A stretch of 64,000 nucleotides of DNA from a virus (IMGVR_UViG_3300036985_006490:1-64000); one strand, 5' to 3'; shown: positions 11,696 through 49,824, counted from the stretch's first letter. A program made the numbers and translations. The notes: generated from the letters alone by a model not told the origin.

Positions 11696-12193
11696 TTATT
11701 CTCCTTTAATCATTGCCAATCCATGCTTCAAAAATTCTTTTGCTCTCTGTGAAACATTTGATAATGCATAAACTTTCTCAATGTCTTTTACAAGTTCTTC
11801 TCCGTGTTCGTTTTCCTTGTATAACTCGATAATTTTATCCATCGCCTTATTACATTCTTTTTTTGTCTCATCGAAATAGTTGTAAGGTTTGAACTCTTTC
11901 AAGTGATTCATAATATTATATGCAATGTGTTCTCCACCATCAGAAACATTCGGGTGAATTCTTAAGGTCTTTAATAACTCAAGTCTATCTGTAAGACCTC
12001 CAACACCGTTCTTTCTAAGTTGAACTCCCTCGATGTAATCTTCAAGTTCGTCTGAACCAACAATATCTTCAAGAGTCTTCACATTTCCACCGTGGCAGAA
12101 TTTTCTATCCTCTTTTTCTTCTGATTGTTCAATCATGTATAATTTCTTGATTGAATCTTTTTCGTCTTCCGTAAGTACAAATCTTTTGCTCAT
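11696..12193 (-). CDS. Tagged protein, LTEDEK type, 165 aa
   Basis: Start set at ATG 12193 (MSKRFVLTEDEKDSIKKLYM), which is preceded by ATAAATA at 12198-12204. The first 25 residues form one of the recurrent tags, ending MIEQS, a possible (I/M)-x-E processing site. The body is helical and acidic with a CHGG motif and a repeated helix pattern; no known family recognised. The same tag type starts the 26181-26552 protein. Confidence 0.85.
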   Translation of the reverse strand: MSKRFVLTEDEKDSIKKLYMIEQSEEKEDRKFCHGGNVKTLEDIVGSDELEDYIEGVQLRKNGVGGLTDRLELLKTLRIHPNVSDGGEHIAYNIMNHLKEFKPYNYFDETKKECNKAMDKIIELYKENEHGEELVKDIEKVYALSNVSQRAKEFLKHGLAMIKGE

Positions 12194-12249
12194 ACCAATA
12201 AATATATCAATCATTACAAATTGACAATCTATTTATTCTTAAAATATAT

Positions 12250-12897
12250 ATGAAAAGATTTTTATATTCAGTCGCAATTGTTTTACTATCCCTTTTATTT
12301 GTAAGTTCATCTCAAAATAAAAATGAAGTTGTCCTAAAACACACAAATTACACATCAACATTCAGTATTTCCAAAAAATATCCTGTGATGGTTGAATGGT
12401 GGGTAACCAAAGCGATGGTAAGTTGTCCAACACCTCTCAAACGAAAAGATAATTTCAAACCAGATCCATTATTACCACAACACACAGACATCGCAAAGGA
12501 TTATGTCGGAAGTGGATATGATAGAGGACATATGATGCCCGCAGCAGACAATCTATGTCAGACACAACAAATTCAAGATGAAAGTTTTTATTTTTCTAAT
12601 ATGGCTGCTCAGACACATAGGCTAAATGCCGGAGATTGGAAATCATTGGAGACATTCACAAGAGATGAATCCAAATTAAAAGATTCAATTCACGTTTGGG
12701 CAGGAAATGTTGGTGAAATTAAGAAAATAGGTGGTGTGTCCGTCCCAAAATATTGTTGGAAGGTAATCCATATCAAAAAGGAAAATAAGTGGGTAGCGTA
12801 CTTGTTTGAAAACAATACGTCAAACCCTGACGGATTCAAAAACAACGAAGTTACCCTCAAGGACATCACATCCTTAACTGGTTTTACATTTCGCTAA
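12250..12897 (+). CDS. Secreted DNA/RNA non-specific endonuclease (NUC1 type)
   Basis: 215 residues with an N-terminal signal (FLYSVAIVLLSLLFVSSS) and the beta-beta-alpha-metal nuclease signature YDRGHMMPAADN (catalytic His in DRGH), followed by FSNMAAQTHRLNAGDWK with the metal-binding Asn. It would be exported to the periplasm or outside, where it could degrade nucleic acid from lysed or competing sources. A TATTTAT box lies 15-20 bases upstream of the start. Confidence 0.93.
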   Translation: MKRFLYSVAIVLLSLLFVSSSQNKNEVVLKHTNYTSTFSISKKYPVMVEWWVTKAMVSCPTPLKRKDNFKPDPLLPQHTDIAKDYVGSGYDRGHMMPAADNLCQTQQIQDESFYFSNMAAQTHRLNAGDWKSLETFTRDESKLKDSIHVWAGNVGEIKKIGGVSVPKYCWKVIHIKKENKWVAYLFENNTSNPDGFKNNEVTLKDITSLTGFTFR

Positions 12898-13150
12898 ACA
12901 AATACTTGTTGATATTGTCCAAGGTATAAGTAGATTCTCTTTTATCGTAGACATGTTCCCATAAGGTTTTATTTTTAAGATATGGGTGAGGTTGAGACTT
13001 CGCCCATCTTTTTCCCATCTTATAATCTTTAACATTATAAGTTAATTTTTTTGTTGGTTGTTTAGCCAACCAACCTCTCACGGTCATTTTTAATTTGTGT
13101 AACATAAGGAATAAATATGGATTATTGGGTTTATATGACTTTGAAAACAT
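12884..13150 (-). CDS. Basic hypothetical protein, 88 aa
   Basis: Lys-rich protein (LHKLKMTVRGWLAKQPTKK, YKMGKRWAKSQPHPYLKN) overlapping the converging nuclease gene by 14 bases. No obvious promoter. The start may be the internal Met at about residue 16. Function unknown. Confidence 0.6.
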   Translation of the reverse strand: MFSKSYKPNNPYLFLMLHKLKMTVRGWLAKQPTKKLTYNVKDYKMGKRWAKSQPHPYLKNKTLWEHVYDKRESTYTLDNINKYLFSEM

Positions 13151-13215
13151 TACTAAATTTAAAATATTTGATTATACATCTAATAACAATCACATATACA
13201 TACAAACAATAAAAA

Positions 13216-14682: not shown

Positions 14683-14948
14683 AAATAGGTTTTATAGGAG
14701 TAGGTAAATTAGGTAAAGATGCTGCCGAAGTAATGGCTGAATATCACTATGTTGAAGGGTACGATATAAATAATGTTACACCAACTAATTTTAAAATGGT
14801 TGAAACATTAAAAGATGTATGTTTAGATAAACAAATAATTTTTGTAGCAGTTCCAACACCGCATCATACGGATTATGATGGTAGATATCCAACATCGCAT
14901 TTAGAGCCAAAAGATTTTAACTATTCCATAAAAAAACCCCTAATGTAA
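14679..14948 (+). pseudogene. 5' fragment of UDP-glucose/GDP-mannose dehydrogenase-like gene
   Basis: 89 residues: an N-terminal Rossmann motif (GFIGVGKLGKDAAEV) and IIFVAVPTPHHTDYDGRY, both characteristic of the NAD-binding domain of nucleotide-sugar dehydrogenases, which are normally about 300-440 residues long. The frame stops inside the terminator hairpin (CCCCTAATGTAAGGGG), so the rest of the enzyme is gone. It is translationally coupled to the glycosyltransferase upstream and shares its A/T-rich codon use. Confidence 0.75.
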
Positions 14949-14956: not shown

Positions 14957-14960
14957 AAAT

Positions 14961-15155: not shown

Positions 15156-15197
15156 AGTCTTTTTTTATAAATATATTGCGGGATTGATAATTGTAAA

Positions 15198-15482: not shown

Positions 15483-15493
15483 AATCTTAATTA

Positions 15494-17022: not shown

Positions 17023-17736
17023 TTAATCTTTTTTAAAGACGAGTTTATCACTTGCCTCACTGTAGTCATTCTTTACTGTTGAAAGTCGGTAACCCTGTTG
17101 TGATAAATAAGATTGAAGTTTCTGACTATCTTGTTGAGATAAATCAGGTCCTTTATAAACCGCTCTTTTACCGTTTAATCTACCTACGATTAAACCACCC
17201 TTAACTAATCTATTATAAAGGTCTGAAGGCGACTCTGCGGTTGCAGGTGTAGTTCCTGCTGCTGGTGTAGTTCCTGCTGCTGGTGTAGTTCCTGCGGCTG
17301 GTGTTGTTGCCACGGGTGCCGCAGCAGATGCCGCAGATGGAGCTGTTGTTATCGTTGCTGCCGATGGTGTTCCACCATATTGTCCTCCTGGAGTAGGTGC
17401 TGCTGCAGTTGCCGCTGATGAAATCTCTGTAGAAGGCATTACATTTTTCGCATCAGATGTCGCTTGTTGACTCTGTTCTTTTCTTGCATTCTTCGTGGCA
17501 ACAACCTTTTCTAACGCATCTTGAGTTAATTTACCCCAATCTCCGTCAACACCATCTCCTGTGGAACCTGTTTTTCCTAAATCAACCTTGTATTTATCTA
17601 CCAATATTCTTTGAATTTGTTTAATAACATCCTCAACTGTTGCTGCAGGGGCATCTTGTTCTGAAATAACCATACCTCTTTGATATCCCAAAAGGTATTT
17701 CATTTTATTTAATTCTTCGTTTACTAAATGTTTCAT
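17023..17736 (-). CDS. Tagged low-complexity protein with PG-binding-like motif
   Basis: 237 residues. The tag is MKHLVNEELNKMKYLLGY, then GMVISEQDAP; V-I-S-E-Q is a likely processing point. A segment GSTGDGVDGDWGKLTQDAL resembles a peptidoglycan-binding repeat. An Ala/Pro/Thr linker with three PAAGTT repeats follows, then a C-terminal domain (SDLYNRLVKGGLIVGRLNGKR) that looks globular. It is read behind the 17748 gene from one promoter. I infer an abundant virion or core protein. Confidence 0.85.
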   Translation of the reverse strand: MKHLVNEELNKMKYLLGYQRGMVISEQDAPAATVEDVIKQIQRILVDKYKVDLGKTGSTGDGVDGDWGKLTQDALEKVVATKNARKEQSQQATSDAKNVMPSTEISSAATAAAPTPGGQYGGTPSAATITTAPSAASAAAPVATTPAAGTTPAAGTTPAAGTTPATAESPSDLYNRLVKGGLIVGRLNGKRAVYKGPDLSQQDSQKLQSYLSQQGYRLSTVKNDYSEASDKLVFKKD

Positions 17737-17747
17737 GATATATTTTA

Positions 17748-18383
17748 TTATGCTTTGAGTTGATTTAATAATGTTGTTAGTTGTGTTAAATCAGGTGTTT
17801 GTTGTGTTGTAGTACTGGTAGATTGTGTTACAGTTGATTGTGAACCGTCATCTTGCAACTTAGCTAATATTGATTGTAAAGTTTGTAAATCCATTTTATC
17901 AGATTTAACACCTAAGTCAGTTGCAGATTTTGCAAATCTAGTATTCACAACATTAGTACCACCTTTTTGAGTATTATCTGTCTTTTTTATTTCAAGTGCC
18001 TTTGATAAATCGTCTCCAAACTTATATCCAGCAGGTGATGCAACATCTGGAACAACGACATTTGGACAAGTTGTCTTCGCTGCGGCAATTTCTTCGGGAG
18101 TAATTGTATAGGAACTTACGTATTCATCGAAAGTTTTTCCATTGAATGCTAATTTTGCATTTTCTATTTTACCATTCTTTACACTACAATAATTAAAATT
18201 GATATTTTTTTGTCTCGGAGTAGCGGCCCCCACTGTATTCATGTAAGCCGCAAGGCCGTCTTGTTTGGTTTGAGGCTGACCTGCCGAATTCAACAATTGT
18301 TCCGATATCACGGTTCCCGCCTTGGCATGAATAAGACCTTTCATCTTATTTAGTTCTTCAAATATATTAGATTTATTATTCAT
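17748..18383 (-). CDS. Tagged protein, EELNKM...VISEQ type, 211 aa
   Basis: N-terminus MNNKSNIFEELNKMKGLIH, then AGTVISEQLLNSAG shares the tag of the 17023 and 26592 proteins. The body has two Cys (FNYCSVKNG, AAKTTCPNV) and a Ser/Thr/Gln-rich tail. No family recognised. It is preceded by an ATAAATA box (about 18403-18409) and followed 11 bases later by its tagged partner. Confidence 0.83.
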   Translation of the reverse strand: MNNKSNIFEELNKMKGLIHAKAGTVISEQLLNSAGQPQTKQDGLAAYMNTVGAATPRQKNINFNYCSVKNGKIENAKLAFNGKTFDEYVSSYTITPEEIAAAKTTCPNVVVPDVASPAGYKFGDDLSKALEIKKTDNTQKGGTNVVNTRFAKSATDLGVKSDKMDLQTLQSILAKLQDDGSQSTVTQSTSTTTQQTPDLTQLTTLLNQLKA

Positions 18384-18425: not shown

Positions 18426-20870
18426 TTACTTTTTCAAATGGTTAAATCTGAATGTTATTAACTCTTCATCCTGATTTCCCAACTTAGGACCGAGATATTG
18501 TCTGAAGTTTTGTCGTAGTTTTGTTTCGATTTCCTTTTCAACCTTCTCAGGTGTTACATTTGGTATTTCTCCTTTGAGGTAATTTTCGGGTGTATCAATT
18601 TGTACTCCCGCTCGTGTTTTCAAAACATCATAGATATCCACATTGACAATATTAACATCATCAGTTTCCTCTACGGAAGAAATTTTGAACTTGATGCTTG
18701 TGTTAGGAACTTCACCATATAAAGATTTTGTGGTTGAAATTTTTGGGGAGGGGTTAACGTCTCGGAATGATTCTTTCTTTTTCTTCATGACATACTCATG
18801 AGAAAATCCACTTTCCAACAACTCCATTTCCCTTTTTGACATCAGGTAAACTTTGGTGTCTATCTCATTATTGTATGTGTACGGTGAGGATCTGAGCATT
18901 TGTTTGCTTGTGCTATTGCTATATCTATCAAAATTTTCATACCACTTACCCTCTTTGTAAATGTAAACAGGGTACCATCCATAAGATTTCACAACATAAT
19001 ATTTAACACCGTTTCTATCTTTTGTCCAATATCCTTGCAAGTTTGACCCTTCGAACGGAAGTTGAGCTTTTGTAAAATCACCAGATTGGTAGTTGGGAGT
19101 TTTTTGACCACGTTTGTTTCTTGGGTCAATAAAAGTTTCTTTCGTTAATCCAGAATAATCACCATCCTCTCTGTAGTTAAGGAGGTAAAGTTCCAACATA
19201 TAAGTTGCATATTCCTTACGAATTCCAAACAAAGGGAGATATTCCTTTATGATATTCAGTAATTCTTTTTTGGTTTTGGCGGTTTTCTTGTATTCATTAA
19301 ATAATTTGAACAATCTTACGATGACTTTGTCTGATGCAATCTCGAAGTCCTCGTTCATCATATCAAAATCTTCATCATCAAATTCATCTTGACATGTTGT
19401 TTGGTGATGTCCCAATAATCCGTCTTCGAACCAATCTTTACACACCATGGTCATCAAACCAATTTGTTCATGAAAGTTCCAATCACCTGAATACACATAC
19501 GGCTCCAATTCTTCTTGAAAGATAAAATCATCTATTGCTTTATTTATAACAGCGTCCGCATATTCAAACTCATTATCAAATTGATCACACAACTTTGGAA
19601 ACTCTGTTTCGGCATGATATATAAAATCCTGCATGGTCTTCTTATTAAACCTTCTTCTCAACTTTATCATAAAGTCGGATGTTTGTTCAACAATCCTTTT
19701 GAGTTGAGATTCTGTTAAAATATAATCTTTTTTGATTTTTGATTCTGAAGATTGTGTTGGTATTGTGCGTTTTGGATCGTTCCAACCCAGTAAAGGATAC
19801 TTTGAACTTAAATAAATATCTTTCATCGGTTCCATAGAAAGAGCATTTACGAGTTCAGATTCTATAGTTCCAAAATCTCTAAAACCAATTCTTATCAGTT
19901 TAATTCCGTTATCCAAACAAAATTTGTTTTTTGCCAAATCGTTTTCTACTCTTTCATTGAATGCCACTAAACCTTTGAATCGTCCTTCTTTGGGGAAGAA
20001 ATGTGGTTCCCCGTCAAATTCCGCAATCACTTTCGTTCCATCTTCCTTAACAAATAAAGCATCCGCTTTTAACCTGTTTCTTAGTCCTATCCCTTTTATA
20101 CTGTAAGCCCCGATTCTTTTATTTTTTTCAATCTTATATCCCAAAGATTTTAATGAATCTAACATTTTAGATTCTCCCTTCCAATCAACTCCTTTATTTT
20201 TATTGCAGATAGGACAAGCAAATTCGAAGTTAATCTCGTTTGCTCGGGCCCAATCGGGGAAAAGTGTTACTGGGTTTTCATGATTATCACTAACACACTT
20301 GATATTTTTTACGACCAATCTAGTTTGATTAGATCCGTCACCTCGTGGAATTAAGTCAAATTCGGCATCTGTAAAATCAAGGGGCAAGTCTTTAGGAACC
20401 CTAGTCATAAACACACCAATCTTACCCTCCTTACTTTGTGGAAATCTTATGTTACGATGCTCTAAATAACATTTTTTACAGGAATATTGTGTTAAAATAT
20501 CTAATCTAGTCTCATCTATCTCTCCATGAACTACTCCTTCTGAGTCTGTTTTTTCACATATTATTCCCTTGATGGTTTTGTTACTGTTTTCATTTCTACC
20601 ATAGGCAACATTTTCAAAATTATATTGAGGGAATTTTTGTTTTAGTTCTTCAGTGATTTGTTTATTTTCTTTTTCTTTCAAATCAGACAATAGATTTTGC
20701 ATAGAAAGATTTTGGTCACCAGTTTTAGTTTTTGTGTTTCCAATCCATCGTGATATACTAATGTATTCTGGATCTTTACGAAATTCGTCCACAGTATTGA
20801 ATCTCTCAATATACTTCTTAACTGAATCCATGTCCCATTTCAACGGTCGTACTTCCAAAATTACTTTCAT
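18426..20870 (-). CDS. Fusion: PD-(D/E)xK homing-endonuclease-like domain, internal tag, phage protein
   Basis: 814 residues in three parts. Residues 1-345 hold paired cysteines (C131/C134, C219/C222) and a nuclease-like core ADALFVKEDGTKVIAEFDG followed by FCLDNGIKLIRIGF, as in Vsr/PD-(D/E)xK homing enzymes. Residues 384-396 are DYILTESQLKRIVEQ, the tag normally found at a protein's start. Residues 397-814 are an acidic helical region and then a strand-rich region (LQGYWTKDRNGVKYYVV). A homing endonuclease seems to have fused upstream of a tagged gene. ATAAATA at 20875-20881 precedes the start. Confidence 0.85.
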   Translation of the reverse strand: MKVILEVRPLKWDMDSVKKYIERFNTVDEFRKDPEYISISRWIGNTKTKTGDQNLSMQNLLSDLKEKENKQITEELKQKFPQYNFENVAYGRNENSNKTIKGIICEKTDSEGVVHGEIDETRLDILTQYSCKKCYLEHRNIRFPQSKEGKIGVFMTRVPKDLPLDFTDAEFDLIPRGDGSNQTRLVVKNIKCVSDNHENPVTLFPDWARANEINFEFACPICNKNKGVDWKGESKMLDSLKSLGYKIEKNKRIGAYSIKGIGLRNRLKADALFVKEDGTKVIAEFDGEPHFFPKEGRFKGLVAFNERVENDLAKNKFCLDNGIKLIRIGFRDFGTIESELVNALSMEPMKDIYLSSKYPLLGWNDPKRTIPTQSSESKIKKDYILTESQLKRIVEQTSDFMIKLRRRFNKKTMQDFIYHAETEFPKLCDQFDNEFEYADAVINKAIDDFIFQEELEPYVYSGDWNFHEQIGLMTMVCKDWFEDGLLGHHQTTCQDEFDDEDFDMMNEDFEIASDKVIVRLFKLFNEYKKTAKTKKELLNIIKEYLPLFGIRKEYATYMLELYLLNYREDGDYSGLTKETFIDPRNKRGQKTPNYQSGDFTKAQLPFEGSNLQGYWTKDRNGVKYYVVKSYGWYPVYIYKEGKWYENFDRYSNSTSKQMLRSSPYTYNNEIDTKVYLMSKREMELLESGFSHEYVMKKKKESFRDVNPSPKISTTKSLYGEVPNTSIKFKISSVEETDDVNIVNVDIYDVLKTRAGVQIDTPENYLKGEIPNVTPEKVEKEIETKLRQNFRQYLGPKLGNQDEELITFRFNHLKK

Positions 20871-20967: not shown

Positions 20968-21894
20968 ATGAATCCACGTCTCAAAAAAATCATGTTCAGT
21001 AAGTTAAATGATGATTTATCCAAGGTTGAAATAATTGTTTCCGAAAATAAATCCATTTGGTTCATCGACCGTGCAAATAAGTATTGGTATTTTGAATTGG
21101 AAAAATCAGGTAAATTATGGTGGAGGTATGAATTTTTCACCGATTTTTTTATTCTTTTTTCTCTCGAAATTAATGATTTTCAACCTATACTCTCTGAATG
21201 GGTGGAGGGAATACTCAATCGTGGGGTATCTGCAACGACTTCCTTATCATATAGACCATATATCGTGGTGGAGGGAATACTCAATCGTGGGGTATCTGCA
21301 ACCGGAGACCTTGGCATGGAAAGAATTGCCACGGTGGAAAAGATTTTTGATAGTAATGTAAACATGACTACGAGATCCGGGCACAGGCTTCATAGCACTG
21401 TGGAAGGTATCCTCAATCATGGATACAGAAAAGGATCTCGTAAAGTAGATGAGGTGCTCAATCATAAGGTGGCTATAACAGAATACTGTGGCATTATCCC
21501 AAGTTGTGATTTAGAAGAGGTACTCAATCACAAGGTGGTTTCAACCTTACAAAGTCCCGATATCGACCCATCATTTGTGGAAGCAGTCCTTAATCGTGAG
21601 ATTAACGAAATAGATGGAGGAGAGTTGTTAGATAATATTACGCTGGAAAAAGTTCTCAATCATAAGGTAGTTTCAATTTCACATGCAAATGAACAAAATG
21701 AATTAATACAACAAATTCTTGTTCATGAATTAATATATGAAGTTGAATCTGCAACTCCTTTGGACACCCCAGCACACGATTCGGTGGATGAAGTATTATC
21801 ATACAAAGTAACCAGAACCATACCAGACCTGAACGAATCACTTACAGAAATCGATATTTTATTGAACTCAATAGTACCACTTGAAATTCCTTGA
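20968..21894 (+). CDS. MFSLS/WFE family protein with eleven 22-residue repeats
   Basis: 308 residues. Residues 1-78 are an untagged copy of the family domain (WFIDRANKYWYFELEKSGK, FFILFSLEI). From residue 79 a unit of the form V-E-G-I-L-N-R-G-V-S-A-T recurs at a 22-residue step (positions 79, 101, 123, 145, 160, 182, 204, 226, 247, 273, 295), the first two identical in DNA and later ones diverging (VLNHKV, VLNREI). The repeat seems to be an amplified C-terminal helix of the family. It overlaps the converging 21868 gene by 27 bases. Confidence 0.82.
   Translation: MNPRLKKIMFSKLNDDLSKVEIIVSENKSIWFIDRANKYWYFELEKSGKLWWRYEFFTDFFILFSLEINDFQPILSEWVEGILNRGVSATTSLSYRPYIVVEGILNRGVSATGDLGMERIATVEKIFDSNVNMTTRSGHRLHSTVEGILNHGYRKGSRKVDEVLNHKVAITEYCGIIPSCDLEEVLNHKVVSTLQSPDIDPSFVEAVLNREINEIDGGELLDNITLEKVLNHKVVSISHANEQNELIQQILVHELIYEVESATPLDTPAHDSVDEVLSYKVTRTIPDLNESLTEIDILLNSIVPLEIP
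21201..21302 (+). repeat. 36-bp exact direct repeat, 66-bp period
   Basis: 21201-21236 and 21267-21302 are identical; they are the newest pair in a 66-base (22-codon) tandem array running to about 21880. Confidence 0.92.
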
Positions 21895-22398
21895 CGACCT
21901 GAAACATGCCGAATAAAGTTTTGGAAATAATTTCTTTATAATAAAAAATAGTAATAATCCTCCCAAAGCAAATGTTGCCACCGCAGCCACAGCGGGTGGC
22001 ATCGCAACCCCCATAAACACCGCAGTCGACATGACTTGTTCGTTCTGTTGTCTTTCTTGTTTTCTGAAATCCTTGAATTGTCTTTTCAACTTTATTAATT
22101 CTGATAATGAGGCAGATTTCATCTTTTCCTGTAATTCGTTAATCTTCTGTTTCGCCTCACCTTGTTCTTCCTTTGGGACACTACTAAGGTTAACATCAAC
22201 AGGGGCATTAGGGTTTGTACAACCAAGGATATTTTGGAAATCTTCCGATGATATATTCTCTCCAACCTTCTGATTAAATATTGACGCAACCTTATCCATC
22301 TCCTCACTTTTAGGTTGATTAACAGAAGAGGCTTCCATCATCACTTTTTTAACCAATCTTGTTAAATCTGACTCTGTTAATCTTATAACTTTTTTCAT
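21868..22398 (-). CDS. Tagged membrane protein (IRLTESDL type), 176 aa
   Basis: Starts MKKVIRLTESDLTRLVKKVM and then M-E-A-S, a possible cleavage point. A long charged coiled coil follows (KINELQEKMKSASLSELIKL), then a hydrophobic stretch (MGVAMPPAVAAVATFALGGLLLFFII) with a basic end. Possibly a membrane-active packaged protein. TATTTAT box about 35 bases upstream. Confidence 0.88.
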   Translation of the reverse strand: MKKVIRLTESDLTRLVKKVMMEASSVNQPKSEEMDKVASIFNQKVGENISSEDFQNILGCTNPNAPVDVNLSSVPKEEQGEAKQKINELQEKMKSASLSELIKLKRQFKDFRKQERQQNEQVMSTAVFMGVAMPPAVAAVATFALGGLLLFFIIKKLFPKLYSACFRSSRNFKWYY

Positions 22399-24993: not shown

Positions 24994-25818
24994 TCAAAGA
25001 TAAGGGTTCGTAAGAGTATTTTTTTCAATAAAACGTATTTTCTCGATAATGCTGTCAGCAATTATTCTGTGAAATTTTTTTGAAGGGTGATAATCAATAG
25101 GTGGGTTTTTACCAAAGAATTCATAATCCTTATGGATTGTTAAATTTTTATCAATATCCATAACATTGCACAAAGAGTTAAATTCTTTATTATTATATTT
25201 TATATAAATTTTTCTTTGATTCATATAATCATCATTTTCTATTAATTCGTTATAATGATTAGACCAATTAAAAATTAAAGGTATTATACCTTTATTTTCA
25301 TAATAAATAAAAGTTTCTTTTATTTTGTTAAAAAGTTGTTCAGACAATTTTTGGTTATAATCATCATAATTAATAAAATTATACTTTTCTAAAATTTTAT
25401 AAGATTTGTTTTCATCATAATCACTTAATCTGAATTTACTACCGTCGGGAGTAATATAATGACATCTTTCGGGCATTGATGTTTGAAAAACAATATATTT
25501 TACTTCATCATATTTGTAATTATGTTTTGACCATCGTGGATTTAAGTGATAAAGACCAAAAATTTGGTTTATAAATTCAATACTCTCCTCATCACATCCC
25601 GAATAATCCTCTCTTGTTATTTCAAACATTTCCAGTTCCTGAGATACTAATCTTGGAAATCTTAAAATATCTTTATATTTTAAATGATGTATTGGCCTAT
25701 CTCTAACTATTAAATCGAACGATGAATCACCTTCATATTGACGATATAAATCTTTATTATAAAACCATAGACCATGTCCATGTGTAAATGAACATCCGGC
25801 AAAAATTATTCCACTCAT
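24994..25818 (-). CDS. SGNH/GDSL-like hydrolase, phage type
   Basis: 274 residues. Block I is FAGCSFTHGHGL (Ser in GCSFT), and the C-terminal IDYHPSKKFHRII supplies the Asp-x-His pair. The middle is Asn/Tyr/Lys-rich. A close relative sits at 43916-44833. Such enzymes remove acetyl or acyl groups from glycans; in a phage they may modify host or own surface sugars. Catalysis is inferred from motif positions only. Confidence 0.8.
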   Translation of the reverse strand: MSGIIFAGCSFTHGHGLWFYNKDLYRQYEGDSSFDLIVRDRPIHHLKYKDILRFPRLVSQELEMFEITREDYSGCDEESIEFINQIFGLYHLNPRWSKHNYKYDEVKYIVFQTSMPERCHYITPDGSKFRLSDYDENKSYKILEKYNFINYDDYNQKLSEQLFNKIKETFIYYENKGIIPLIFNWSNHYNELIENDDYMNQRKIYIKYNNKEFNSLCNVMDIDKNLTIHKDYEFFGKNPPIDYHPSKKFHRIIADSIIEKIRFIEKNTLTNPYL

Positions 25819-26180: not shown

Positions 26181-26552
26181 TTACATACTCCAACTAGGAT
26201 TTGCAATCATTAACATACCATCTTCAACTCTTGGTAAGTTTCCAGTGTCTTGATAATCGGCATATTGAATTTGTTCTGGAAAAAATTTTTGTCCCTGAAA
26301 AACCAAATAGTTTTCGTCAGGTCTTTCTTCATCGTCTTTACCGCTATAGCTATATCCTTGTCCTTTTAATTGAGTGTTAGCCGCGTCACCTACGGTTGGA
26401 TTACCAAAGATACTATTCCAAAAGCTCTCCTTCATTTCATCTTTTGGCTTATTCTCAGGTGATTCATTTATTGATTTATTATAACCACGTTTTTCATGCA
26501 TTTTGAGAATTTGTGATTTTTCAGATTCCGTTAAATTGAAATTTTTGTTCAT
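26181..26552 (-). CDS. Tagged protein, LTESEK type, 123 aa
   Basis: N-terminus MNKNFNLTESEKSQILKMHE, later SINESPENK: this is the LTE-x-EK tag with an I-N-E-S site at about residues 28-31. The body contains an acidic Gly/Tyr-rich region and a strand-like end (NYLVFQGQKFFPEQIQY). No family recognised. ATAAATAG box about 20 bases upstream. Confidence 0.83.
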   Translation of the reverse strand: MNKNFNLTESEKSQILKMHEKRGYNKSINESPENKPKDEMKESFWNSIFGNPTVGDAANTQLKGQGYSYSGKDDEERPDENYLVFQGQKFFPEQIQYADYQDTGNLPRVEDGMLMIANPSWSM

Positions 26553-26591: not shown

Positions 26592-27593
26592 TTACGACAA
26601 AAATATCTGAGATTCTTCATTTCTTCTTCTTTGTAACCCGCTGTAAAATTTACCGCTCACAGCTCCAGTCGTTGGTCCTCCCTGAATATAAGATGCCGCT
26701 AGCTCCATGTCATCATTTTCGATTGCATTTTTTATTTTTTTACCATATTCTCGAGCAGAAACAAAATATGGACCAGCGTTATATCCCAAACTAACTAAGG
26801 AAGCCTTTTGTCTGTCATTTAATTTGTTCCAATTACCCATTCCAAGTTGATTTGCAATTGTTGGTCCATAAAAATTTTTCAATTCATGTTCTAAGGTATT
26901 CTCAGCTTCAGCCTGTGTCCAAGTTGTATTTTTAGTAACATCAACCAAACGTCCGTTTTCTAATTTTTTACTAGATCCATAACCACCTCTATATTTATTC
27001 TCATCCCAAGAAGCTTTGTCAGTAAACGATTCCCATTTTTTAATCAAATCTTTAGAAATATTTATCCAATCTCCTGAAAGTGAAACGGTTGACGCTCCAC
27101 TAACAATTCGTTTATCAATAAGTTCTTTTAAATCTTCAGAGGTGATATTTTTTTGTTTCAACAGTTCAACCATCTTGTTCAACATTTCAGGTGTTACCTC
27201 ATCTACTTTAGAACTGTTGAATTTATTTCCAAAGTTTTTTTCCATAAACTTCGTGGCCATTTCTGAAGTTTCAGGACCAAATACGCCATCAATACCGTTT
27301 TTCGGTAATTCGTAACCAAGAAGACTCAATCCAATTTGTAGTGATTCAACTTCTTTTTGAAATGTATTGGAACCTTTGTCTTGTAGTGTTATCCCGCCTT
27401 GATTAGAAGCTGTCTCCAAGGTATTAAACAAATCATCTACATTTGAGGAAACCAAATCACTCTTTTTGGGGTCATCTTTTTTGGGGAAAAACCACTTCAA
27501 TATATTATTTAAAAAATCTTGTTCCTCAATAATCTTTTTTCCATAAGTTATTTCATGGATTCTTTTTAGCTCTTCCGATAAAATTTGTTTCAT
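26592..27593 (-). CDS. Tagged lysozyme: PG-binding domain plus GH24 (T4-type) domain
   Basis: 333 residues. Tag MKQILSEELKRIHEITYGKK, then I-I-E-E-Q (residues 21-25). A peptidoglycan-binding repeat lies at about 85-120 (IDGVFGPETSEMATKFM). The GH24 domain starts near 180 with the Glu/Asp catalytic pair nine residues apart (E188, D197), as in T4 lysozyme, and a GGYG turn with Arg where T4 has Thr26. A C-terminal YSGLQRRRNEE matches the family end. The tag suggests a virion-borne rather than a lysis enzyme. Confidence 0.9.
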   Translation of the reverse strand: MKQILSEELKRIHEITYGKKIIEEQDFLNNILKWFFPKKDDPKKSDLVSSNVDDLFNTLETASNQGGITLQDKGSNTFQKEVESLQIGLSLLGYELPKNGIDGVFGPETSEMATKFMEKNFGNKFNSSKVDEVTPEMLNKMVELLKQKNITSEDLKELIDKRIVSGASTVSLSGDWINISKDLIKKWESFTDKASWDENKYRGGYGSSKKLENGRLVDVTKNTTWTQAEAENTLEHELKNFYGPTIANQLGMGNWNKLNDRQKASLVSLGYNAGPYFVSAREYGKKIKNAIENDDMELAASYIQGGPTTGAVSGKFYSGLQRRRNEESQIFLS

Positions 27594-27984: not shown

Positions 27985-28389
27985 TTAGTCAATAAAGTTG
28001 ACATCATTAACGGTCAAAAAACTCCCTTTTGGGAACCCCAACAACTTTTCAAGTTCACCATAATTATGTGTAATTTCTTCACCATCCCCAATGTCCTTTG
28101 TTGAAATCAAATAAACCTCCCCGTCCCTCATATCAAATTTTGTATTTGGATTAGATGAATGATTACAAAATCTTCCCAATACATCGGTCTCATAGGCGTT
28201 CTTTTTTATTTTTCTTCCAATCATTCCTTGCTCCTTTGATAGTATCATTCCAATCTCTTCCCCTTTGCCAATTTTACCTTTAGTAATAACACCATACCCT
28301 TTGTTTGGTATTTGTTTAATATATATTAAATCGGGGTTAATCGATTCTATTAACATTTTTTTTTGAGACTCCGTAATAATAATTTTCAT
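27985..28389 (-). CDS. Tagged SET-domain protein (putative protein lysine methyltransferase)
   Basis: 134 residues. Residues 1-16 are the tag (MKIIITESQKKMLIES). The rest is a compact SET domain: GYGVITKGKIGKGEEIG near the N-terminus, RFCNHSSNPNTKF (the NHS-x-x-PN motif, residues 76-82) and GEEITHNYGE (104-112) with the catalytic Tyr. Residues of AdoMet binding are recognisable. Post-SET cysteines are absent. If the tag is a packaging signal, this would be an enzyme carried in the virion. ATAAATA follows the start immediately. Confidence 0.9.
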   Translation of the reverse strand: MKIIITESQKKMLIESINPDLIYIKQIPNKGYGVITKGKIGKGEEIGMILSKEQGMIGRKIKKNAYETDVLGRFCNHSSNPNTKFDMRDGEVYLISTKDIGDGEEITHNYGELEKLLGFPKGSFLTVNDVNFID

Positions 28390-28754: not shown

Positions 28755-29264
28755 TTACTTGAGTTCATAATTGTAAGCAACTCGTATTTTTGGATTCCTC
28801 AAGATATTTTTTATCTTTTGAATATTTGAGGATAAATCTCCCTCATTCCACATCATGCTTAAAGAATTTCGACCTAGAGGGGCTAATCCATTTTCTATCC
28901 CTATTTGTTTTGTCTCAGGTGTCTCGTACATAAAGATTACGCTTCCATTGTCATTAATCGAAAGATAATATGTAGCTTTAGCACCTTTACCTTGAACCCA
29001 CACCGCATCATTATAGTTTAAACCAGTCTCTGGCACCCCCTCAACTTCGTATTCATCAAATCTAGTGGGTTTTTTGAATGCCATCAATTCTGTTTTAACT
29101 TTTTCGAAAGCTTCTTTATTTGGATTGATAGATTGCCCTTTTTTTGGTTCTGAAGGGACTTTTTTTGTGGGGTCAAGCTCAATATTCAAGTCACCTTGTT
29201 CCTTAATAACTCGTTTTACCAATTTAACCAAATCGGATTCGGTTAATCTTATTGTTTTTTTCAT
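28755..29264 (-). CDS. Tagged protein (IRLTESDL type), 169 aa
   Basis: MKKTIRLTESDLVKLVKRVI, then K-E-Q-G: classic basic tag with V-I-K-E-Q processing-like site. A Pro/Lys linker (residues 30-50) separates it from a C-terminal globular part with strands (TYYLSINDNGSVIFMYETP). Function unknown. It is read behind the tagged gene at 29277-29585. Confidence 0.87.
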   Translation of the reverse strand: MKKTIRLTESDLVKLVKRVIKEQGDLNIELDPTKKVPSEPKKGQSINPNKEAFEKVKTELMAFKKPTRFDEYEVEGVPETGLNYNDAVWVQGKGAKATYYLSINDNGSVIFMYETPETKQIGIENGLAPLGRNSLSMMWNEGDLSSNIQKIKNILRNPKIRVAYNYELK

Positions 29265-29276: not shown

Positions 29277-29585
29277 TTATAATTTATGATTTACAGTACA
29301 AAAAACTTTTTTAGTTGCACCTCTCAATAATCCATCAATCTTGAGGAGAGGAGATTTTATCTGATTATGTACTTCTTGATATTCTTCAACTTCGGAATCT
29401 TTTGGAACTAGTTTTCCTAACTTACAAACATCATTGTAATATTTCTCTTTAAGTTTTTTGTCCAATTTTAAGAATCTTACTTTGGAGTCAGTACCAGTTT
29501 CGGTAATTACATTCTCAACTAATCTTTTCTCCAATCTTTGGTTGGCTTCTTGAATATGCCTGATTTTGCTAAAACTTCTATTCAT
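29277..29585 (-). CDS. Tagged protein, SKIRHIQEANQRLEKRL type, 102 aa
   Basis: N-terminus MNRSFSKIRHIQEANQRLEK, then NVITETGTD, a distinct tag class ending V-I-T-E-T. The body is a small Lys-rich domain with two Cys (DVCKLGKLV, KVFCTVNHKL). ATAAATA box upstream at about 29600. Function unknown. Confidence 0.8.
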   Translation of the reverse strand: MNRSFSKIRHIQEANQRLEKRLVENVITETGTDSKVRFLKLDKKLKEKYYNDVCKLGKLVPKDSEVEEYQEVHNQIKSPLLKIDGLLRGATKKVFCTVNHKL

Positions 29586-33346: not shown

Positions 33347-33799
33347 TTAGAATCTATCACTGTCATCATTTGATTTTGACATTCGACTTTGAGTTGCAAA
33401 TGGAATAAGCTTACGGAAAAGTGACCTTGTCTCCCCTTGAATGTCATTTAACTCCAAAGAATTACCTCCCCATAGAATTTCTGATGTTTCTGAATCTACA
33501 ACCAAACTCTTACCGTTTAACCGAGCTATCATGACCCGAGGTTTGATTTCCCTAACATTAGTTACCATCTCATATGAGGGGTCCATCTCCAATGTTCGAT
33601 AAATGGTCTCCAAAGATTTACGGTCTTTAGAATTTTCAATACCCATAGCATCCTTTGCTCCTTTCATTATCTTAGAAAAGAATCCCTCAGGCTTTCTCAT
33701 TGGACCTTCCTTAAAATCCTCATTCATTTCTTGTTCTTTAATAGCCTTCTTTACCAATCTGACAAGATCTGATTCCGTTAATCTTATTACCTTTTTCAT
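33347..33799 (-). CDS. Tagged protein (IRLTESDL type), 150 aa
   Basis: MKKVIRLTESDLVRLVKKAI, then K-E-Q-E: basic tag with A-I-K-E-Q site. Then a Lys/Gly linker (FKEGPMRKPEGFFSKIMKG) and a domain with strands (KPRVMIARLNGKSLVVDSET). The PEGFFSKIMKGAKDAMG segment is amphipathic and could be membrane-active. TTATAAATAG upstream. Confidence 0.86.
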   Translation of the reverse strand: MKKVIRLTESDLVRLVKKAIKEQEMNEDFKEGPMRKPEGFFSKIMKGAKDAMGIENSKDRKSLETIYRTLEMDPSYEMVTNVREIKPRVMIARLNGKSLVVDSETSEILWGGNSLELNDIQGETRSLFRKLIPFATQSRMSKSNDDSDRF

Positions 33800-33866: not shown

Positions 33867-34163
33867 TTAGTTCAACTTCTTTATGTATTTACCAACACCC
33901 ATACTCATCATACTCATGAATCCATTTTTTCTCAACTTACCTTTAATCCTAATACCTGTATCCTTATCAAACCCCTCCGATTCAAAATAACCTGGACTTT
34001 CCACATCAACCACAACATAACTCCCCACATATTTTACCGTCACACATCCCGAATCCATATAAGGTTCCAAGTCATCAATAATATCAATACCCCGACCTTC
34101 TTCAATAACCTTTTGTACAATCTTAACCAATTCAGATTCCGTAAGTCTTACTATCTTTTTCAT
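33867..34163 (-). CDS. Tagged protein (IVRLTESELV type), 98 aa
   Basis: Start set at ATG 34163 (MKKIVRLTESELVKIVQKVI, then E-E-G-R) by tag and by ATAAATA directly upstream. A small domain follows with strands (CVTVKYVGSYVVVDVESP) and a Lys/Gly end (RIKGKLRKNGFMSMMSMG). Function unknown. It is the last gene before the non-coding region. Confidence 0.86.
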   Translation of the reverse strand: MKKIVRLTESELVKIVQKVIEEGRGIDIIDDLEPYMDSGCVTVKYVGSYVVVDVESPGYFESEGFDKDTGIRIKGKLRKNGFMSMMSMGVGKYIKKLN

Positions 34164-34644
34164 ATTAATAAATACCCAAAAAAGGTCATTTTTTTTCCCA
34201 AAAATTTTTTTGCGCAATATTGGGGATTATCCCCCCAAAACTGACATTCTGACAGGAGGGGAGGGGGGATACGGGGGGTAGGGGCCCCATATGGGGGGGT
34301 GTACCCCATGCCAGAGGGGAGGTATCAGGTATATTTATTTATCCCCCACCCCCTATGAGTTATCCACAAGTTGTTAGTGTGGATAACTTGTGGACATAAA
34401 CAGAATAATATATTGTGGATAAGTGGTATGACAAGCGGACAGTAATCAAAACCACGTAGGGGTAACCGAAGAATGTTCTGTATGATAGTACAATTATATC
34501 TTGGTTTTGTATGCTCTACTTAACATAATCCAGATTATGTAACATACTTCTATAACTCCCCCAACCTTTTATTGTATTATGTGGGGAATGTTTAGACACA
34601 CCTTAAAAGTTTTGTGGACTCTAATGTCCCCGACCACAGGGAGG
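34164..34644. other. Non-coding region with G-runs and DnaA boxes (candidate origin, left part)
   Basis: No reading frame of note. It holds five G-runs of 4-7 at 34258-34299 on the plus strand and three exact DnaA boxes (TTATCCACA 34360-34368; reverse complement at 34378-34386 and 34414-34422), the first two facing each other. ACTGACATTCTG at 34240 recurs at 35557. A TATTTATTTAT lies at 34333-34342. The combination suits a replication origin or packaging/recombination site. Confidence 0.55.
34258..34299 (+). other. Potential G-quadruplex tract
   Basis: Runs GGGG, GGGGGG, GGGGGG, GGGG and GGGGGGG are separated by loops of 1, 4, 2 and 8 bases, in a genome where such runs are otherwise rare. 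Located 60 bases from the first DnaA box. Confidence 0.65.
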
Positions 34645-40509: not shown

Positions 40510-40851
40510 CTACCCAACATATTTTCTAGCACCACGTGTATATAAATCCACAAACTTCTCAAACAACTTCTTATCATTTTTGATTAAATTACGAAGTCCG
40601 TCTTCTAATTCTTTCATTTGTGGAACATGGGTATCAGCATAGTCCATAGGTATTACACTTACAACCCCCGAGTATATTGCTCTATCTAAGTATGTATCGA
40701 AGTCGGGCACGGAATATGGTATGTACCAATCTGCGGCTTGAATAACTGCATTGATGAGTTCGGGCAATCTTCTTTTAAGGTATGGATTTACGTTACCTTC
40801 ATTAATCCCCATCACTTCTTTAATTCTATCTATGTCTTCTTGTAAATTCAT
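40510..40851 (-). CDS. GINE-tagged helical protein, 113 aa
   Basis: Start set at ATG 40851 (MNLQEDIDRIKEVMGINEGN). The tag, ending G-I-N-E-G, is shared with the next two genes. The body (KRRLPELINAVIQAADWY, FDTYLDRAIY) is homologous to each half of the neighbouring 40856-41488 protein. Function unknown. Confidence 0.83.
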   Translation of the reverse strand: MNLQEDIDRIKEVMGINEGNVNPYLKRRLPELINAVIQAADWYIPYSVPDFDTYLDRAIYSGVVSVIPMDYADTHVPQMKELEDGLRNLIKNDKKLFEKFVDLYTRGARKYVG

Positions 40852-40855
40852 TTGG

Positions 40856-41488
40856 TTATATGTTGGAGATATAGTGGTCATAAATCTCATCGTGTATCGA
40901 ATGTTTCTTGATTAAATCCAATATCATTGGCTCTAACTCCTCACGAATGTTTAACTGATCCTCGTATTCCCCTCCTATTTCATCGTGAACGAAATCTCTT
41001 GTTGCCATGAATACAACCCTTTTTAGAAAATGGTCAAAGTCTCTGAATCTACGTGGAGATAACCAATCATATGAATGTTCAATATAATCAATTAAAGCAT
41101 CCATTCTTCTTTTAACAAGAAGTAGTTCTTTAGATTCATTAATCCCCTCGCTTGTATCAGACTTTTGCGAATAGTAGTTTTCTTTGATTTTTCTAAATAA
41201 TCTTTTATCATTACGTAATAATTGAAGAGCAAGTGGGAGTAACTCATCTATTTCTTCAGAAGTCACGAGAGTATTATTATATTCAAAGAAACCATCTATT
41301 GAATGCCTTAAAATTAACTTAAGATATTCTTCAAAACTATCCATTTCTTCTATAAATTCATCCATCCATTCGAAAGAATTAAGGAGAACATCAAGAAATT
41401 CATTTTGTCTTCTCTTGAAGAAAGTATCACGACTTTCGTTAATCCCCATGACTTCCTTAATCCTGTTTATGTCTTCACTCAAATTCAT
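40856..41488 (-). CDS. GINE-tagged protein with duplicated tag-plus-domain, 210 aa
   Basis: MNLSEDINRIKEVMGINESR tag (GINES 15-19), a helical domain (KRRQNEFLDVLLNSFEWM, FEEYLKLIL), then a second GINES at 115-119 followed by another copy (VKRRMDALIDYIEHSYDWL, FDHFLKRVV). The internal site makes it look like two processed products joined in one frame. ATAAATA at 41493-41499. Confidence 0.85.
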   Translation of the reverse strand: MNLSEDINRIKEVMGINESRDTFFKRRQNEFLDVLLNSFEWMDEFIEEMDSFEEYLKLILRHSIDGFFEYNNTLVTSEEIDELLPLALQLLRNDKRLFRKIKENYYSQKSDTSEGINESKELLLVKRRMDALIDYIEHSYDWLSPRRFRDFDHFLKRVVFMATRDFVHDEIGGEYEDQLNIREELEPMILDLIKKHSIHDEIYDHYISNI

Positions 41489-41492
41489 ATTG

Positions 41493-41499
41493 ATAAATA
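41493..41499 (-). promoter_or_regulatory. TATTTAT box
   Basis: Reads TATTTAT on the minus strand, four bases before the ATG at 41488; the same arrangement stands at 42233-42239 for the 42228 start. Confidence 0.5.
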
Positions 41500-41509
41500 T
41501 AAAGGAAAT

Positions 41510-41540
41510 GAAAAACCCCTACTTTTTGGGTGAGGGTTAA
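41510..41540 (-). terminator. Terminator after the 41545 gene
   Basis: ACCCCTACTTTTTGGGTGAGGGTT forms a hairpin, T-run on the minus strand. Confidence 0.65.
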
Positions 41541-41544
41541 TTTG

Positions 41545-42228
41545 TTATTCATAATTTCTCATATTTTCAAACAGACCTGGCGGTTTTTCAATTATATTCA
41601 TTCTGTAACTTGGTATTCTATAAACAATTACCATGAATGCTTTTGCTTGGTCTTCAGTTATTTCACCTTTTTCTAATAACTCCAATATTGCCATGACTCT
41701 GTGCCATCCTTCTTGAAGGTATAGTTTGTTGTTCACAGATTCAAAAACCAATGGTTCATTTTCAGGTGTAACAACTGTAGTGTCATAACCATTCTCCCTT
41801 ATTTTATTCAATTGAAATTCTAATCTTTTTTGGAATGTTGGAGTATTCTTTTTCATTTGAAACCAACTTTGAGTTCTATCCGCAAACTGACTCGGATTAA
41901 TTGTTTTTACACCAATAGTGATATTCCTCGTATCTCTATTTTCAACTTTCGCCATCTGCTCAAGTGTAAAAGTATATGGTTGACCAAAATTTAATCTCAT
42001 TGGATCTTGTGGAATGAACGAACCATTTGGCATTAACGGAAACAACCATTCTCTAACCGCGCTTACAGGAAATTTTTTCGGTTCCCCTGTAAAACATGAA
42101 AACATAGATGCCAATTCATCTCTCCCAAATTTATCACCATTGCGATATGTTTTTGGTAAACAATTTTTTGAAGATTCATTAATCCCCATTACTTGTTTAA
42201 TCCTTTCTATGTCTTCACGTAAATTCAT
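41545..42228 (-). CDS. GINE-tagged ParB-like protein, 227 aa
   Basis: MNLREDIERIKQVMGINESS tag (G-I-N-E-S). The C-terminal part has LYLQEGWHRVMAILELLEKG, which resembles the ParB/sulfiredoxin 'G-x-HR-x-x-A' nucleotide-binding motif, followed by FMVIVYRIPSYR. The middle is basic with Arg/Gln helices. ParB-like phage proteins may act as CTPase or nuclease; here the tag suggests it is packaged. Family assignment moderate. Confidence 0.8.
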   Translation of the reverse strand: MNLREDIERIKQVMGINESSKNCLPKTYRNGDKFGRDELASMFSCFTGEPKKFPVSAVREWLFPLMPNGSFIPQDPMRLNFGQPYTFTLEQMAKVENRDTRNITIGVKTINPSQFADRTQSWFQMKKNTPTFQKRLEFQLNKIRENGYDTTVVTPENEPLVFESVNNKLYLQEGWHRVMAILELLEKGEITEDQAKAFMVIVYRIPSYRMNIIEKPPGLFENMRNYE

Positions 42229-46724: not shown

Positions 46725-46733
46725 CCCTTTTTG

Positions 46734-47720: not shown

Positions 47721-47765
47721 TATTTATATCTTCTTGTAGATTTATTTTAATAAATATCTGCATAA

Positions 47766-47796
47766 TAAAACCCCCCACCTTTTGGGTGAGGGTCTT
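47766..47796 (-). terminator. Terminator after DoxX-like gene
   Basis: ACCCCCCACC-TTTTGG-GTGAGGGT hairpin and T-run on the minus strand. Confidence 0.7.
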
Positions 47797-47798
47797 AA

Positions 47799-48137
47799 TT
47801 AAAATACTCTTAGAAAATGTCCCAAGAGACCCGTTACTCCAATCATAATTGGAATGTAGGTTTTTGCTCCACCCATTAATGACAAGTGCATTACGACCGC
47901 AGCACTCATGAATGATGCGATTAGAATTGCTCCGAATAATGATGTGGTTGGAATCAATAGTAATACAACTCCTAATAATTCACCTAATCCTGTGACAACT
48001 CTATACTTCTCTATCTTCATAAATGCGAAGTTTCCCACCATTTCTTGTGTTCCGATAAGTTTATCGATTGCACCTTTTCCTAAAAATAGTGCTGTGATTA
48101 CGGATAGTGTCCATCCGATAATTTGTAGTAGTTCCAT
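47799..48137 (-). CDS. DoxX-like four-TM membrane protein
   Basis: 112 residues with four hydrophobic helices and the DoxX_2 pattern: ALFLGKGAIDKLIG after helix 1, VVTGLGELLGVVLLLIP in helix 2-3, and HLSLMGGAKTYIPI before helix 4. An inner-membrane protein; the family has only loosely described redox links. Often host-derived. Confidence 0.88.
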   Translation of the reverse strand: MELLQIIGWTLSVITALFLGKGAIDKLIGTQEMVGNFAFMKIEKYRVVTGLGELLGVVLLLIPTTSLFGAILIASFMSAAVVMHLSLMGGAKTYIPIMIGVTGLLGHFLRVF

Positions 48138-48142
48138 AATTT

Positions 48143-48397
48143 TTATTTTTTATATTTTTCTTCTAATTTTTTTAATTCTTCTTCATTCAAATCTTGTTCA
48201 TCATCTAATGAATATTCAATGTCATATGAATCAGTATAAACATTTTCATCATCGTGGTGATAGATATCATCACATTCTCCATCAGGACAATTTTCAACTA
48301 ATTCTAATGCATCATCGTAATTTTCAGCCAAAACACTATATGTCCACGCGTGAACAAATGTTCTTTCCGCAATAATTGTAAACTTTTTCTTTCCCAT
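48143..48397 (-). CDS. Acidic hypothetical protein, 84 aa
   Basis: N-terminal KKKFTIIAERTFVHAWTYSV strand pair and a helix (NYDDALELVENC), then a strongly acidic C-terminus. The plan resembles phage 'DpnD/PcfM-like' small proteins, a weak guess. TATATTTG (host-type -7) about 30 bases upstream. Confidence 0.75.
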   Translation of the reverse strand: MGKKKFTIIAERTFVHAWTYSVLAENYDDALELVENCPDGECDDIYHHDDENVYTDSYDIEYSLDDEQDLNEEELKKLEEKYKK

Positions 48398-48482
48398 ATT
48401 ATTATTTTTATTTTAGATGTAATCCAAATATAAGAAAAAATATTAAATAAAAAAACCCCACCGTTATAATAAGGTTAATTAT

Positions 48483-49361
48483 TTACCAAGCTTTGCATGA
48501 CCAATATCTCGGACGGTCTTTAGGACCTGGATTTTCACAATGGTGTCTAGCCCTAAATGATTTACGACGTGACGGAATATTTTTTTTAATTCTCATATTT
48601 GGGTCACCAAAATTAACTTTTACAATGTTTCCTTTATCGTTTTTAACATATACTGAACGTTTTTTAGGGCCTTTTGGGGTTAAAAATGGTTTATTAAGAG
48701 TAACTTTTCTTCCTTGATATTCCGCTTCAGTTAATAAGTCTCCAACAACAAAGTTTGTCTCTTCGACTGACCCATATTCATCTTCATACAAAGTTTCATT
48801 TTTGGGTTCGATACCATTTTTCTTCATGTTGATAGTAATGGCATCCTGTTGTGCCGGATTTATCGCTTCATCTGTCTCTCCCACCGATTCTTTTTTAACA
48901 CAGTTTGGATATCTTTTTCCAAACATAGTTTTCATACCTTTTTGTGTGTAACCCTTCCAACATCTTTCTGTGATTTCACCCTCTTTCATCTCCTCAGTTT
49001 TCTTTTTTGATTTTTCTTTTTGAGTTTCGATATACTCAAAAGCCGTTTTCAATCTTTCTTTAACTTCAGGGTCTTTTGCTCTTTCTAAAGCTACCCTCAA
49101 TCTTTGATGAATTAAGTTAATAATTTGTGATTGTCTTTGATGTGATTTTGATTTAAAACTATCCTTATTTAACGTATCGATAATATCTTGTTTAGTCCTG
49201 AACTTTACAGATACAGTATCTTTAGGATTTTCATCAGTATATAATCTCCTTTCTGAATCTTTTGGTTTTTTTCCAGTACCAACTTTTGGGTCAGACTCAT
49301 TAATCACTTTTTTAACTATTGTTAAAAGTTCTAATTCAGTTAATTTAATTATTTTTTTCAT
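48483..49361 (-). CDS. Tagged prohead-core-like protein with zinc-type C-terminus, 292 aa
   Basis: MKKIIKLTELELLTIVKKVI, then N-E-S-D: basic tag with V-I-N-E-S. The middle has CWKGYTQKGMKTMFGKRYPN, a DUF5872-like block, and Lys/Glu-rich helices with further I/V-x-E sites. The C-terminus (KRSVYVKNDKGNIVKVNFGD, then FRARHHCENPGPKD and RYWSCKAW) is a conserved block I associate with virion or head-core genes of large phages. This supports a capsid link for the tag family. Confidence 0.83.
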   Translation of the reverse strand: MKKIIKLTELELLTIVKKVINESDPKVGTGKKPKDSERRLYTDENPKDTVSVKFRTKQDIIDTLNKDSFKSKSHQRQSQIINLIHQRLRVALERAKDPEVKERLKTAFEYIETQKEKSKKKTEEMKEGEITERCWKGYTQKGMKTMFGKRYPNCVKKESVGETDEAINPAQQDAITINMKKNGIEPKNETLYEDEYGSVEETNFVVGDLLTEAEYQGRKVTLNKPFLTPKGPKKRSVYVKNDKGNIVKVNFGDPNMRIKKNIPSRRKSFRARHHCENPGPKDRPRYWSCKAW

Positions 49362-49365
49362 AATA

Positions 49366-49824
49366 TTATCTGTTATATGGCCTAAATCTCATGGGAGTGG
49401 ACTTTATTGCAGATTTAGGGAATCTTAATCCAACACCCTGTTGTCTTGCGTTTTTTAATGTTCTTGAGTATTCTGATAATTCTTCATCAGAGGAATCTAC
49501 GTTTTTACAACCTCTAACGTACTTTCTTTTCAGATTTGGCTGTATATCAAAATGACTATCCAACAACATATAAATGTCATTCATAATATCCTCTTGCACT
49601 GAAGAACCTCCAAAAGCATTCGCCATTACTTGAAACGGATCGATATCGAAAGTCACAGTAACTAAATAACTTTTGTATTCACCAGCCTCTATTACATCGA
49701 TATCAACATCACAGATTTCTTTTTCGTACTGACGAACAATAATTCCGTTAATCAGTTTTCTAATCAATGGAGTTAAATCTTTTCGAGTTTCTTCGTGTAA
49801 TATTTTTCTAATAAGGTCTCTCAT
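49366..49824 (-). CDS. Tagged protein, MRDLIRKILHEE type, 152 aa
   Basis: Start set at ATG 49824 (MRDLIRKILHEETRK), after a TATAAATA box; tag of another class ending I-L-H-E-E. A domain with strands (YKSYLVTVTFDIDPFQVMAN) and helix (DIMNDIYMLLDSHF) follows, then a basic tail. Its partner 48483 begins 4 bases after its stop, so two tagged proteins share one mRNA. Confidence 0.83.
   Translation of the reverse strand: MRDLIRKILHEETRKDLTPLIRKLINGIIVRQYEKEICDVDIDVIEAGEYKSYLVTVTFDIDPFQVMANAFGGSSVQEDIMNDIYMLLDSHFDIQPNLKRKYVRGCKNVDSSDEELSEYSRTLKNARQQGVGLRFPKSAIKSTPMRFRPYNR

Follow-up and report, generated by a model that had tools for sequence, protein, structure and literature searches.

Candidate capsid-targeting propeptides ending in aliphatic-x-Glu on cargo genes of uncultured T4-like phages

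In bacteriophage T4, the internal proteins IPI, IPII and IPIII and the Alt protein carry a short capsid-targeting sequence (CTS) and are cut by the gp21 protease. Cleavage by gp21 is after L/I-X-E, and processing of the IPIII targeting peptide depends on residues 8 and 10 (P3 and P1), with Asp at residue 10 blocking the reaction (PMC9026906). In phages phiKZ and SPN3US, the propeptides of head and ejection proteins are cut by the S80 proteases gp175 and gp245, respectively, and many proteins are packed in the head and ejected (PMC5694885). Here, we describe N-terminal tags on predicted genes between positions 11696 and 49824 of a 64,000-nucleotide stretch of viral DNA (IMGVR_UViG_3300036985_006490:1-64000, hereafter the window). 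The tags consist of a helical part and a linker that ends in an aliphatic residue, any residue and glutamate (aliphatic-x-Glu), and on sequence grounds they are probably capsid-targeting propeptides that are removed in the prohead by the phage's own gp21-like S77 protease. The phages that carry them are a widespread, uncultured, aquatic group of T4-like phages.

An earlier note on this DNA had listed tag-body borders of the form aliphatic-x-E, and all 11 quoted strings were located at the N-termini of predicted genes in the interval (Table 1; an arrow marks the predicted cut). The border GINE↓S or GINE↓G is found in three genes (span 40510-42228) and VISE↓Q in two (span 17023-18383). Two further tagged cases that were absent from that list also fit, namely SINE↓S (26181-26552) and an internal RIVE↓Q (18426-20870).

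The tags were grouped by their helical part into classes A (LTESDLxxLVKKVIxE), C (NLxEDIxRIKEVMG..IxE), D1 (EELxxMxxLxGY..IxE), D2 ([IL]xxEEKxxIxxLH..IxE), E (MRxLIRKILxE, 11-13 residues) and F (MNRSxSKIRHIQEANQRLEKR..IxE). The set used for chance tests comprised 47 distinct tags of classes C, D1, D2 and F, defined by the helix alone with the border excluded; in these classes the distance from helix to border is variable, with linker length changing by up to ~18 residues. The motif [ILVM].E[QSATGN] follows the helix in 36 of the 47 tags against 7.6 expected, a count reached in 0 of 2000 shuffles, and this bears out the earlier description of an aliphatic residue before x-E and a small or polar residue after it. 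Counts for the control motifs [ILVM].D, [ILVM].K and [ILVM]E (Glu one residue nearer) equal expectation, [KRDE].E (a charged P3) is depleted, and the enrichment of I..E follows from the VIxE form of most sites. When the same motif test was applied to downstream segments of the same proteins, using an earlier set of 41 tags, 1-5 of ~40 matched. Outside the N-terminal LTE core, conservation in class A is highest at the border Glu, with an entropy of 1.15 bits against 2.99 and 2.83 bits at its neighbours (regular-expression false positives included). Counted by position across the genome, [ILVM].E is only about twice as frequent near N-termini, a signal too diluted to decide. The class definitions were drawn up after the sequences had been seen, albeit on the helical part only, and the ortholog, class F and tag-swap comparisons therefore carry more weight; likewise, with many paralogous copies among the tags, the stronger evidence comes from the variable linkers and the tag swap.

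One ortholog comparison concerns a 155-aa class A gene near gp23, in which aliphatic-x-Glu is kept in 48 of 48 distinct complete ortholog N-termini from viral contigs. The x position is occupied by nine different residues (S, K, R, N, I, T, A, E, Q) and the position after the cut (P1′) by seven, mostly Q and then E, H, G, D, S and A; P1 is never Asp, and linker length varies. The class F helix, MN(R/K)SxSK(I/L)RH(I/M)QE, is found on several different bodies, with borders ITE↓T, ITE↓G, MSE↓Q, LKE↓N, LRE↓E and LNE↓K. The body GTDSKVRFLKLDKKLKEKYYNDV (gene 29277-29585) bears two unrelated tags, F in the window and A in relative G001; the two bodies are 93% identical and the two tags join them at one Glu (ITE↓TGTDSKV versus IAE↓TGTDSKV). 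Orthologs of gene 11696-12214 in five relatives have differing tag sequences with borders MIE↓Q, MME↓Q, LVE↓Q, ISE↓D and ILE↓E. A hunt for tag swaps by BLAST start position returned mostly low-complexity or generic noise, and hand-checked cases alone were used. The body of gene 29277 had no match in ten further records, the bare 23-aa tag used as a query against phages had none, and no endolysin homologs were confirmed in viral contigs.

The earlier note had also called for a gp21-like protease gene elsewhere in the genome, whose absence would speak against removal of the tags in the prohead. A Peptidase_S77 (gp21-type) gene is present in all six near-complete relatives (309-326 kb; E-values of 1e-22 to 1e-25), and gp23 lies within a few kb of it in each. 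In five aligned relatives, the protease motifs NHP, SSRG and D-x-x-x-PS (catalytic His, Ser and Asp) align with T4 gp21, and the gp23 propeptide ends in LINE↓A at about residue 61, in the column of T4 FLTE↓A; the same column reads IVSE↓A in Flavobacterium phage immuto and LME↓T in RM378. The propeptide border of gp23 is thus the same aliphatic-x-E motif as that of the tags. The window's own record (162,812 bp) gave no S77 match, and no capsid match among the 20 proteins scanned. By gene order against G001 (129 genes, mean 84.5% identity), this record covers G001 from 185 kb to the end and round to ~26 kb, and the G001 head genes, at 130-148 kb, lie outside that span; the missing matches are uninformative because the gene order of the fragment stops before the head module. 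Several shorter fragments have neither protease nor gp23. The expectation of a protease is therefore borne out for the relatives, and we infer that the window phage itself has a gp21-like enzyme.

Between protease and gp23 lies a scaffold-like gene that has, by raw occurrence, many copies of this same short aliphatic-x-E motif. Its segment KEEINQLVKESLSEQ resembles a class A tag by eye, but it scored -13 (rank ~270) and was rejected as a tag. In G005, the 938-aa portal gene (202751-205567, minus strand) contains an insertion from CIAGDTKIATPDGFITIKELA to NFATDTIFSHN that by eye looks intein-like, with an HNH-like stretch.

A pattern survey of five relatives found 13-24 tagged genes per genome, mostly in the accessory island, part of which lies in the window. 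All five surveyed relatives have tagged genes within 8 kb of gp23 (11 seen against ~4.5 expected), and some of these are mutually orthologous; one relative has three tagged genes right beside gp23, plus a fourth by eye. The tagged bodies with recognisable domains include a lysozyme (26592-27593), a lysozyme with an M23 peptidase, LysM and a TseH-like domain. One tagged gene near gp23 (L109 16153-16617) has a C-terminal stretch of ~45 aa that is 60-71% identical to proteins of Pelagibacter and Prochlorococcus phages.

In the mechanism that we consider probable, the N-terminal helix, of which there are several unrelated sequence classes, would dock the protein onto the prohead core. The short linker that follows would present the aliphatic-x-Glu site to the gp21-like S77 protease during head maturation, and the predicted cut would free the mature protein inside the head, from where it would probably be ejected along with the DNA when the next cell is infected. 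The observations that support this reading are the motif itself, its positional conservation, its independence of linker and helix class, the tag swap at one Glu, the protease in relatives and the border motif of gp23. Several observations weigh against it. The tags mostly have Gln at P1′, where the gp23 site has Ala, and helices also occur at C-termini and inside proteins, where cutting would act differently. The mature parts of the tagged proteins are not notably basic (net charge per residue -0.005 versus -0.016), and T4 internal proteins are basic. The excess near gp23 is modest, with most tagged genes in the distant accessory island, and the window's own record is without head genes. Tag profiles showed no similarity to the scaffold, and profiles of classes A, C, D1, D2 and F gave no convincing match in the stretches of T4, RM378 and immuto that were examined.

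The tags could instead be helices that dock permanently on a virion or core protein and are never cut, with the Glu conserved as a cap or contact in the docked helix, and the C-terminal and internal helix copies would then need no cutting. We regard this as unlikely: aliphatic-x-Glu is kept despite the changes in distance between helix and site, P1 in the 48 orthologs is Glu and never Asp while P2 is free, and this motif also terminates the gp23 propeptide. That last observation, that the motif is the phages' own gp23 propeptide site, also speaks against the idea of an address outside the head (tail, baseplate, membrane or host surface) in which any cutting would be by a host protease. Several bodies are peptidoglycan-active or peptidoglycan-binding (lysozyme, M23, LysM, TseH-like) and would be fit for a tail or lysis role, and one conserved tagged gene adjoins tail-side genes; however, tagged genes are mildly enriched around gp23 and we know of no tail-targeting propeptide of such a kind, and we think this explanation improbable.

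Least probable, and in our judgement very hard to sustain, is a spreading N-terminal or start-codon cassette (a translation aid or a recombination copy) that has no sorting role and whose motif is inherited by copying. The tags are indeed paralogous and clustered in the accessory island, but six differing tag sequences converge on one three-residue rule, the exchange of one tag class for another takes place at the same Glu, and the control motifs show nothing.

Copies of the helices outside N-termini hint at a broader version of the head-targeting reading. Class C-like helices (for example, KLQEEIIRIKELLYL and KLTEDIKRIKNLL) form the extreme C-terminus of several unrelated proteins (Table 1), mostly with no aliphatic-x-Glu nearby, a sign that the helix and the cut site may be uncoupled. 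An acidic 488-aa protein, encoded outside the window (record G000 78670-80136, minus strand; locus L001 15670-17136) and with orthologs in six of six genomes, has a class A-like middle segment, LTEDELIDMIEQIVLEQ, by score ranking only, and a D1-like C-terminus, VISEEMNKMKNLIGYNRKTQ, that a profile trained on N-terminal D1 tags finds with E-values of 2.8e-4 to 0.2 (~2,260 proteins searched). It could be a core or scaffold component. A tentative extension, to which we give rather less than even credence, is that head loading uses multiple codes: the prohead core would read unrelated address helices at N-terminal, C-terminal and internal positions, perhaps with the 488-aa protein as intermediary or as the object of mimicry, while aliphatic-x-Glu would be an independent release site and tags would be exchangeable between cargo genes. 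Were tags exchangeable in this way, the genome would spell out which unknown genes get packed and injected.

Table 1. Tags and related helices, with positions in the window unless another genome is named
Feature	Sequence and border	Position	Strand	Gene and remarks
D2-type tag	MSKRFVLTEDEKDSIKKLYMIE↓Q (MIE↓Q)	12128..12193	-	11696-12214; predicted cut after Glu codon 12128-12130
D1-type tag	MKHLVNEELNKMKYLLGYQRGMVISE↓Q (VISE↓Q)	17659..17736	-	17023-17736
D1-type tag	MNNKSNIFEELNKMKGLIHAKAGTVISE↓Q (VISE↓Q)	18300..18383	-	17748-18383
Internal tag copy	DYILTESQLKRIVE↓Q (RIVE↓Q)	19686..19727	-	18426-20870 (814 aa); residues 382-395
Class A tag	MKKVIRLTESDLTRLVKKVMME↓A (VMME↓A)	22333..22398	-	21868-22398
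D2-type tag	MNKNFNLTESEKSQILKMHEKRGYNKSINE↓S (SINE↓S)	26463..26552	-	26181-26552; not in the earlier list
D1-type tag	MKQILSEELKRIHEITYGKKIIEE↓Q (IIEE↓Q)	27522..27593	-	26592-27593; lysozyme, PF00959 E=4e-9
Class A tag	MKKTIRLTESDLVKLVKRVIKE↓Q (VIKE↓Q)	29199..29264	-	28755-29264
Class F tag	MNRSFSKIRHIQEANQRLEKRLVENVITE↓T (VITE↓T)	29499..29585	-	29277-29585
Class A tag	MKKVIRLTESDLVRLVKKAIKE↓Q (AIKE↓Q)	33734..33799	-	33347-33799
Class A tag	MKKIVRLTESELVKIVQKVIEE↓G (VIEE↓G)	34098..34163	-	33867-34217; start probably internal Met, residue 19
Class C tag	MNLQEDIDRIKEVMGINE↓G (GINE)	40798..40851	-	40510-40890; internal Met
Class C tag	MNLSEDINRIKEVMGINE↓S (GINE)	41435..41488	-	40856-41488
Class C tag	MNLREDIERIKQVMGINE↓S (GINE)	42175..42228	-	41545-42228
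Class A tag	MKKIIKLTELELLTIVKKVINE↓S (VINE↓S)	49296..49361	-	48483-49361
Short class E tag	MRDLIRKILHE↓E	49792..49824	-	49366-49887; internal Met, residue 22
Class B starts (uncertain as tags)	MKYIITE↓S	622, 15198, 24637, 27621, 27985, 29788, 30381, 32192, 32629, 39872, 40134, 61663		
C-terminal class C-like helices		G001 237671-238441; G003 133370-134665; G005 224429-225067; G006 96493-97215, 97217-97786		

In the lysozyme gene, an alternative cut one residue upstream (IIE↓E) is possible. The 814-aa gene has an HNH/homing-endonuclease-like N-terminal region followed by the internal tag and then more conserved parts; it may be an endonuclease that was inserted at a tag or close to one. A short start designated class B, an uncertain second type of short tag, is shared by 12 window genes, with I-T-E near residue 7 and, in most, no second site; among its carriers are the members of a ~105-aa paralogous family and a SET-domain protein (27985-28389) that has the class B start alone. 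An Rfam search of the interval gave no match, and the tag strings that were searched for had no occurrence in the open-access library of papers.

If the tags are head-targeting propeptides, then a tag together with the aliphatic-x-Glu rule would be a readable label for proteins that are packed in the head and probably injected. The label would tell where the products of the ~13-24 mostly uncharacterised genes per genome are located and how they are delivered, the lysozyme and M23 peptidase among them, and the SET-domain gene would join this cargo provided that class B counts. The principle of the T4 internal proteins, so far illustrated by a few proteins, would thereby extend to a large modular repertoire.

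Among described systems, the T4 CTS offers the closest parallel, in that a short N-terminal propeptide ending in (L/I)-x-E is found on unrelated, poorly conserved proteins and is accompanied (here in the relatives) by a gp21-family protease and a gp23 propeptide ending in the same motif. T4 ipI and ipIII follow the same plan as the tags, with a similar start, a variable linker and ITE↓A or IAE↓A, the CTS of ipIII being MKTYQEFIAE↓A. The 10-residue T4 CTS is close in length to the class E tag of gene 49366-49887, and the I-T-E of class B lies at a position approximating that length. Unlike the T4 CTS, there are about six tag classes, ~13-24 candidate genes in each genome where T4 has four, a P1′ that is mostly Gln, and helix copies at C-terminal and internal positions. 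The tags would work like the T4 CTS-gp21 system without being sequence relatives of the T4 CTS.

The phiKZ and SPN3US systems share the removal of a propeptide after a short motif ending in Glu, which for the tags is a prediction, but they use an S80 protease and S/A-x-E rather than S77 and aliphatic-x-E. Testing the tags for S/A-x-E found [AGP].E in 5 against 11.2 expected and [STNQ].E in 17 against 17.9. The head-associated anti-restriction proteins Dar and Hdf of phage P1, which belongs to a different phage group, are likewise inside the head and delivered with the DNA, as is predicted for the tagged proteins; to our knowledge, no comparable shared tag families exist for them. Immuto (NC_055915) is a cultured T4-like relative that likewise has a gp21-type protease and a gp23 site of VSE↓A. 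Its genome is 160 kb and the window's tag profiles detect no tags in it, but two different immuto genes (25061-25456 and 111675-112139) start with MKKQILSEQF(K/R)RMQ(F/K)LAGIITE↓S, an apparent analogous tag of immuto's own. As immuto is in culture, it provides a ready test system.
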